Origin: Utricularia gibba
Taxonomy: Eukaryota > Streptophyta > Magnoliopsida > Lamiales > Lentibulariaceae
Assembly: GCA_002189035.1 (NCBI GenBank)
Contig: NEEC01000354.1
Span: 1-46,522 of the forward strand
Direction: 5' to 3'
DNA: 46,522 nt
Both the position numbers and the translations under genes were made by a program. Every line of letters starts with the position of its first letter. Position 1 is the first letter of the stretch. The notes below the pieces were generated by a model. It saw nothing but the letters and a program-made list of their open reading frames with translations, searched no databases and was not told the DNA's origin. This document shows, in pieces, positions 467 through 776 of this stretch.

Positions 467-620
467 GAAAATCGTGATGCAGTTATTGAAGTTAGGATTC
501 ATGAGCACCCAAAATGGTTTTCTCAACCGCATGCTTTATATTTGATAAGGGCTCTCGTGGGGCAACGGTATCGAGCAGGAGGTCGAGTCGAGCTCGGGCC
601 CATAGTCATTTGTAGCCCGG
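467..620 (+). repeat. Half-unit A of the monomer (~154 bp)
   Basis: This is the first half of the reference monomer, aligned to half-unit B by hand. Bases 467-526 align without gaps to 621-680 with 44 of 60 identities, including TGATGCA and a perfect 14-base stretch that contains ATGGTTTTCTCAA. After the core, blocks GCTT, TTT, TCGT, GGT, GTC and CTC keep the same order as in B, with small gaps. Half A carries the SphI site where B carries the HindIII site, and both end in GCTT. It also holds the CGAGCTCG palindrome and most of the variation between monomer classes. Confidence 0.88.
588..601. other. Palindrome pair CGAGCTCG / GGGCCC (example copy)
   Basis: In the reference monomer, the 8-base palindrome CGAGCTCG (589-596) overlaps at its end with GGGCCC (596-601), and both are preceded by GTCGAGTCGAG. 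CGAGC at 572-576 can also pair with GCTCG upstream of GGGCCC, leaving a loop of about 16 bases. The motif recurs in most monomers. Class D copies break it (GTCGGGCTCG), and some standard copies lose one G or C. Whether it forms a structure or binds a protein is unknown. Confidence 0.55.
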
Positions 621-776
621 CAAAAACTTGATGCATTTATTAACGTTGGTTTTAATAGGCTGCCTACATGGTTTTCTCAAGGAAAAGCTTGTCGTTTTTG
701 GGCGGGTGATGTCGTTGTGAACTTCGTTCTGACCAAGGTTCGGTCTGACTCTTTGCCACATCGGGTCCTACTCGAC
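621..776 (+). repeat. Half-unit B of the monomer (~156 bp)
   Basis: This is the second half, a diverged direct copy of half A. It starts at the CAAAAACTTGATGCA block, which matches the GAAAATCGTGATGCA block of A, and carries HindIII at 685-690. Three B subtypes recur. One has GTTTTTGGGCGGG with GTCGTTGTGAAC. A second has CATAGTTTCTC and GTTTCTGGCGGG with GTCGTTGGGAAC or GTCGTTGGAAC. A third has GTTTCTGGGCGGG with GTCTTTTGGAAC, often followed by GACCATAGG. The third subtype commonly follows a class D half A. Confidence 0.88.

Follow-up and report, generated by a model that had tools for sequence, protein, structure and literature searches.

The 46,522-bp contig NEEC01000354.1 of the Utricularia gibba assembly GCA_002189035.1 is made of a tandem repeat of about 309 bp, and it raises the question of whether each repeat unit is itself a pair of related halves and, if so, how the pair arose and spread. 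A sequence-only reading of this contig had proposed that an ancestral satellite of about 155 bp dimerised, that the halves diverged, and that amplification then went by whole dimers. The whole contig, C137 in the genome set and hereafter the window, was found by TRF, unit cutting and segmentation to be one head-to-tail array of the dimer, with about 150 units on the forward strand from position 1 to 46,522. TRF gave a period of 309 with 150.7 copies and 93% matches. Cutting at a conserved anchor yielded 150 units, each 295 to 316 bp and thus of dimer length, and the segmentation contained a single small jump of 11 bp. The units carry about 6.8 substitutions, 6.0 deletions and 1.7 insertions each. 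Homopolymer columns, which make up 154 of 313 columns, hold 4.39 of the 5.97 deletions per unit, and the indel noise in the window is probably due in part to sequencing error of an older long-read assembly. Periodicity of three dimers is weak in the window, with a mean identity of 97.2% at lags 3 and 6 versus 96.4% at lag 1. Variant types such as CATAGTC/CAGAGTC and GATAAGG/GAGGAGG differ from one part of the array to another. The G+C content of the array is 45-48%, versus 38-40% in the other stretches read; centromere repeats are described as AT-rich in most flowering plants in PMC8122249.

The dimer at positions 467 to 776 was rechecked as an example. It comprises, all on the forward strand, an A half of 154 bp (467-620) followed by a B half of 156 bp (621-776). 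The A half is divided into the A box (467-526), which is closest to B and varies less among units than the rest of the half, and the A tail (527-620). The corresponding parts of the B half are the B box (621-680), homologous to the A box and not especially conserved among units, and the B tail (681-776). The gapless match of the two boxes at 44 of 60 positions, the motifs TGATGCA and TTATT common to both halves, and the offsets of 154 bp from A to B and 156 bp from B to the next A were all reproduced as first reported. The perfect run said to span 14 bases is actually 13 bases long, ATGGTTTTCTCAA. This exact 13-mer is present in 10 of the 87 B halves caught by a context pattern, out of about 149 in the window, and the unit at 467-776 is a favourable example; the remaining B halves differ from the 13-mer by indels, mainly within the G and T runs.

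Consensus sequences of the halves were derived from 475 A and 470 B halves cut from six contigs (the window, C213, C34, C50, C64 and C431), of which 200 of each were used. In global gapped alignment the two half consensuses score at z 7.6, and none of 10,000 dinucleotide-preserving shuffles reaches this score. The window consensus, which for this test and for the segmentation was generated by MAFFT from 138 pieces, some of them merged units of up to 927 bp, gives z 7.9 in gapped comparison, with none of 1,000 shuffles reaching the score and the best shuffle at no more than 43.5 versus 79. A later window consensus was rebuilt from the 150 units, and the tests on boxes and tails were performed on the half-unit consensuses (200 halves each). 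When the window consensus is compared with itself in circular fashion and without gaps, the highest count is 118 matches, at offset 156, versus a maximum of 114 in 500 shuffles. The identity of A and B is thus better than that of shuffled sequence.

The likeness is unevenly distributed along the halves. The first ~60 bp, corresponding to the boxes, score at z 8.1 (0 of 5,000 shuffles), and the rest of the half after the box at z 2.5, a score reached by 107 of 10,000 shuffles; with cheaper end gaps on the window consensus, the rest is matched by 6 of 1,000 shuffles. Taken alone, the next ~40 bp after the box show weak likeness between the A and B tails (95 of 10,000 shuffles), and the last ~55 bp show none above chance (1,659 of 10,000). 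The order of short blocks had been claimed to continue to the end of each half. It holds for the first ~60 bp and weakly for the next ~40 bp, and is unsupported for the last third, since the last ~55 bp are at the chance level. Of the 216 windows of the circular unit that are 50 bp or more from the A tail, the six that match this tail best are all placed no more than 4 bp from the homologous B tail. A profile HMM of the A halves matches the B consensus with an E value of 3e-7 over B positions ~3-99, and the profile of the B halves matches the first ~60 bp of the A consensus with 1e-7. The same A/B structure recurs in stretches of C213, C34, C50, C64 and C431. An inverted relation was rejected, as A scores -4.0 against the reverse complement of B and -0.5 against reversed B, versus 74 in the true orientation. 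No sub-period of ~78 bp was seen inside the halves, where 364 of 2,000 shuffles for A and 934 of 2,000 for B reach the score. The 309-bp unit is confirmed as a diverged dimer, whose halves are homologous over their first ~100 bp.

Amplification by whole dimers, as proposed, is borne out by the identities of the halves, the junction patterns and the dimer-based higher-order repeats together. At aligned positions, A halves are 95.9% identical among themselves, B halves 96.2%, and A to B 69.3%, from 300 sampled pairs each. Within one dimer the A-B identity is 69.4% (300 pairs), the same as between dimers, and the halves therefore do not convert each other to a visible degree. Patterns for A-A and B-B junctions have no match genome-wide at up to two mismatches. 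At equal tolerance, the control patterns for the A-to-B and B-to-A junctions match 86 and 140 times, respectively, of about 150 in the window, joins with indels being missed. The periods reported by TRF in the fetched array pieces are 300-316, 618-631 and 925-936 bp and one of 1,249 bp, most of them multiples of ~310, with odd periods of 101, 187, 406, 499 and 1,026 bp also present. The spacing of the B-half pattern on C50 suggests a repeat of five dimers, 1,555-1,558 bp in length, though TRF gave no such period in 7 kb of this contig. The longer periods are mostly higher-order repeats of whole dimers.

Breakpoints in the arrays were taken from Viterbi segmentation of ~156.6 kb, or ~505 units. 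A total of 113 were detected, 92 of which are confined to two stretches, C213:3,496,826-3,501,139 (48) and part of C431 (44). Scrambled satellite, consisting of short pieces with many skips, was seen in the same stretch of C213 and at ~27.9-32.5 kb of C431, and is either satellite that has decayed or a part of the assembly that was poorly polished. At C34:4,400-6,600 several units in succession are shortened, with A-to-A distances of 196, 211 and 272-282 bp, in an otherwise regular array. Alternation of A and B is strict by the junction patterns, and among the 113 breakpoints there is one half-unit deletion in register, an exact 155-bp jump from A to B that leaves a chimeric half-unit at C213:3,602,114. 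Two further jumps are near half-unit size (151 and -149), both within the scrambled block of C213. Exchange between the halves is rare, yet possible, as the deletion at C213:3,602,114 demonstrates.

The satellite is abundant in the assembly, which comprises 100.09 Mb in 516 contigs with TTTAGGG telomeres. A word from the A half has 6,685 matches genome-wide at up to one mismatch, versus none for its reversed control, and 147 in the window; scaled from 147 per 46.5 kb, the satellite amounts to ~2.1 Mb, or ~2% of the assembly. The B-half pattern has 2,584 matches genome-wide, and its ratio to the A word is 0.39, versus 0.41 (61 of 147) in the window. A degenerate pattern for the core common to A and B gave 12,613 exact matches, versus none for the reversed control. 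The ten stretches read have 1.55-2.0 core matches per A-word match, and the genome-wide ratio of 1.89 falls inside these limits, hence leaving no visible surplus of another half type. The 100 core matches listed, in contig order, start at C34, so that C1 to C33 appear to be without any.

A search for arrays of single ~155-bp halves found none in the parts of the assembly that are searchable. Profiles of the halves have no match at E values up to 10 in 100 kb around a copia cluster on C4 (see below), in 10 kb of C3 or in 16 kb beside the array of C213; the same profiles gave 65 matches each in a 10-kb array piece used as positive control. Short-word BLAST in these stretches of C4, C3 and the C213 flank returned weak matches only, the best with an E value of 0.63. 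With regard to the history proposed from the sequence alone, the homology of the halves and their divergence to ~69% identity stand, and neither a free ancestor nor a relic of it was found. The duplication of the whole 155 bp is less certain, the last third being without likeness, and so is the existence of a free 155-bp satellite, which we infer.

Variability among units differs between the two boxes. Substitutions per site in the A box amount to 0.007 in the window, 0.011 in C213 and 0.018 in the four other contigs together, versus 0.035, 0.057 and 0.051 in the A tail. The A box is thus about five times less variable than the tail in the window and three- to fivefold over the groups; note that the three groups share ancestry and are not three independent tests. 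When the box is shifted circularly within the A half, its true place is the second-lowest of 157-158 in each group. The B box is without such constraint, with 0.045, 0.035 and 0.044 versus 0.031, 0.044 and 0.041 in the B tail, in the same order of groups. The least variable 45-bp segment of the unit starts at A position 2 in the window; in C213 and the other contigs its start is 12-14 bp ahead of the A half, and the conserved block may therefore begin at the end of B. The A box is possibly a protein-binding site, present on one half only.

We give a dimer origin of the 309-bp satellite a probability of roughly three in four. An ancestral unit of ~155 bp would have become organised as an A-B pair, and its halves would have diverged to the present ~69% identity where aligned. 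Unequal exchange or replication-based amplification would have come to act on the 309-bp pair, which would then have expanded to ~2.1 Mb. In the resulting arrays the dimers are ~96% identical and in places form higher-order repeats a few dimers long, and the two halves presumably no longer homogenise each other. Each half is about as long as one nucleosome, and the halves may phase nucleosomes. The concentration of likeness in the first ~60 bp and its fading to chance in the last third would also be expected if only a segment of ~60-100 bp had been duplicated inside a ~309-bp monomer that had at no time been a pair of complete 155-bp satellite units. We regard such a partial duplication as unlikely, since the copies are spaced almost exactly at the half period (154/156), which by our own estimate random placement would bring within ~1.5 bp of the half in ~2% of cases, and since the weak likeness of the tails is in register with the boxes.

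Shared ancestry could be dispensed with altogether if the likeness of A and B were due to selection for one protein-binding or nucleosome-phasing box, by convergence or by conversion limited to the box. Variation is indeed lower in the A box than in the A tail, which holds for the window, for C213 and for the four further contigs together. However, the B box is without constraint, A and B taken from one dimer are no closer to each other than A and B from two, and a match of 44 of 60 positions in fixed order is not a short motif, all of which make this account very improbable. Chance resemblance of words or an assembly artefact might be suspected from the noise of the contig, with ~7.7 indels and 6.8 substitutions per unit and 4.39 of 5.97 deletions in homopolymer columns, but 0 of 10,000 shuffles reach the score and the structure recurs in C213, C34, C50, C64 and C431, leaving almost no room for such an explanation. 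Chance is ruled out by the shuffles for the first ~60 bp.

The sequence-only reading had also noted that 155 bp is a length found among plant centromeric satellites. Among the contigs with the family, C213 (3.70 Mb) is the only large one found, and 33 others of known size are 14-87 kb each; the matches listed on the other contigs all lie within the first 60 kb. As far as sizes were read, most of the satellite sits outside C213, in small contigs. C213 (3,704,653 bp) starts with telomere repeats, and satellite begins at ~3,486,175, 3.49 Mb from the telomere, in an array of ~218 kb towards the contig end (partly read). The five blocks read between the array start and 3,700,000, ~84 kb in all, are satellite except for small gaps in the scrambled block; the unread stretches between them carry scattered matches, a further match lies at 3,703,456, and the matches listed are on one strand. 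With a telomere at its start and satellite towards its end, C213 is thus an arm contig that runs from the telomere into the array and breaks off there.

The first four contigs of the assembly measure 8.50, 6.19, 5.35 and 3.85 Mb. C3 and C4 have telomeres at both ends, and C1 and C2 have one at the left end and none in the last 1,000 bases; tandem copies of the Genlisea- or Chlamydomonas-type telomere variants were not found at four contig ends. No exact match to the A word or the core is among those listed for C1 to C33, C3 and C4 included, the first being on C34. Because C3 and C4 are without an exact match, the satellite cannot serve as centromere repeat on all chromosomes of the assembly. 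It is abundant and forms long, internal, non-telomeric arrays, as a centromeric satellite does, but by the exact matches listed it is not on all chromosomes.

A Ty1/copia element (C213:3,481,188-3,486,168) lies directly to the left of the array of C213. It possesses RVT_2 (E value 1e-86), copia gag, Pol_BBD and pre-integrase domains, with the integrase core below its cut-off. The 247-bp terminal repeats of the element are 98% identical and mutually inverted, unlike the direct repeats of an ordinary LTR element. A 1.6-kb piece of the element has 48 matches (40 of 206 candidates scored), of which those longer than 700 bp are 92-100% identical, the 100% match being the piece itself. Its relatives, 92-99% identical to the C213 piece, form compact clusters on several large contigs. 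On C4, 10 of the 11 matches longer than 800 bp fall within 1.976-2.053 Mb (1,975,891-2,052,738) of the 3.85-Mb contig. All four matches on C3 fall within 105 kb (4.63-4.74 Mb), all three on C402 within 28 kb (2.54-2.57 Mb) and all three on C413 within 43 kb (2.93-2.97 Mb). C460 has its three matches longer than 700 bp within 26 kb, C244 both of its matches within 41 kb, C1 its three within 263 kb and C2 three of five within 45 kb. The two copies on C328 are separated by 730 kb, and single places were seen on C451, C510, C505, C317, C321, C255 and C213, the last at 3,484,300. The 100 kb around the mid-chromosome cluster of C4 consists to 56% of this copia family, and the longest tandem array there is 346 bp. 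A chromovirus beside the array was rejected, as the sole C213 match among 22 chromodomain matches is at 0.52 Mb, with none near the array.

This young copia family is a candidate centromere-targeting retrotransposon, since one cluster per chromosome is the pattern expected of such an element. Judged from the 40 of 206 candidates scored, the places of the copia clusters probably correspond to centromeres. The satellite may accordingly mark centromeres, for which its place beside the copia element on C213 is circumstantial support, and on at least one chromosome the arrays most likely belong to the centromeric or pericentromeric heterochromatin. The centromeric hint of the earlier reading is thereby strengthened for C213 and does not extend to every chromosome, C3 and C4 being without an exact match. 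Independently of the dimer origin, the satellite could instead form a non-centromeric heterochromatic block, such as a knob or a B-chromosome-like segment, on one or a few chromosomes, with C213 as one of its edges. C213 being the sole large contig with the family, the 33 others of known size measuring 14-87 kb, and the matches listed elsewhere starting at C34 and never lying beyond 60 kb are what such a block would give. Against it, the array is 3.49 Mb from the telomere and adjoins a copia family that clusters on several large contigs, including the mid-chromosome cluster of C4, which has both telomeres. We consider a non-centromeric block quite possible, though not the preferred location.

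If the preferred, centromeric location is combined with the other observations, two kinds of centromere might coexist in one genome. Some chromosomes would have arrays of the A/B dimer with one conserved ~60-bp box per dimer, and others, such as C4, satellite-free clusters of young copia elements. Once dimerised, the satellite would have moved onto centromeres of the copia type, and its A box would be the binding site of a DNA-binding centromere protein. Taken as a whole, this joint reading is speculative, and we hold it to be rather unlikely in all its parts at once.

PMC8333044, citing the long-read assembly of 2017, states that the putative centromeric regions of U. gibba have no satellite repeats and few chromoviruses, and our literature searches found no published description of the 309-bp satellite. 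As ~2% of the U. gibba assembly is one satellite, the published statement on centromeric satellites (PMC8333044) needs another look. Comparison with a chromosome that has a copia cluster and no satellite would make it possible to test directly how satellites invade centromeres. The low variation of the A box, on one side of the dimer, gives a tangible starting point for finding a sequence-specific binding protein. New centromere repeats are recognised to arise by dimerisation of satellites of nucleosome length, and the present repeat is a clean plant example: the pair has diverged, A and B alternate regularly, and higher-order repeats occur locally. It is of interest for how far the halves have diverged, for the box on one half only and for the genome that hosts it.

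A like course of events is described by Melters 2013 (PMC4053949) for the 343-bp centromere repeat of New World monkeys, so that dimer satellites are already known as a type, of which the present case is another example. It differs from the monkey repeat in that no 155-bp relative was found, and no sequence relation is implied. In that study, 171 plant and animal species had Sanger data, and higher-order repeat structure was reported for 76 of them. Within the Lentibulariaceae, the 161-bp tandem repeat Gn7c161 of Genlisea nigrocaulis is presented as centromere-associated in PMC4542322, and like it the U. gibba satellite is a nucleosome-scale tandem repeat. In a comparison limited to primers, the two of Gn7c161 score against the 309-bp unit no better than 125 of 300 and 39 of 300 shuffled primers, and the four published Genlisea primers, from two repeats, are likewise not above shuffled ones. 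The likeness to maize CentC, a centromeric satellite of ~156 bp, is one of length, the unit being about as long as the CENH3 nucleosome core, which is given as ~155 bp there in PMC3053214.

The A/B dimers of human alpha satellite (suprachromosomal families 1 and 2) resemble the present repeat in having two alternating monomers of nucleosome length. The CENP-B box consensus, TTCGNNNNANNCGGG, is absent from both strands of the 309-bp unit consensus. The U. gibba repeat thus differs from alpha satellite in being a plant sequence without this consensus, and binding to its A box is putative. PMC8997354 and PMC8122249 describe alpha satellite monomers as 50-70% identical within a higher-order repeat, inside repeats that are near-identical to each other, and the former places the CENP-B box on one monomer of the dimer. 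As in alpha satellite, one half of the U. gibba dimer carries a special box, here the conserved A box.
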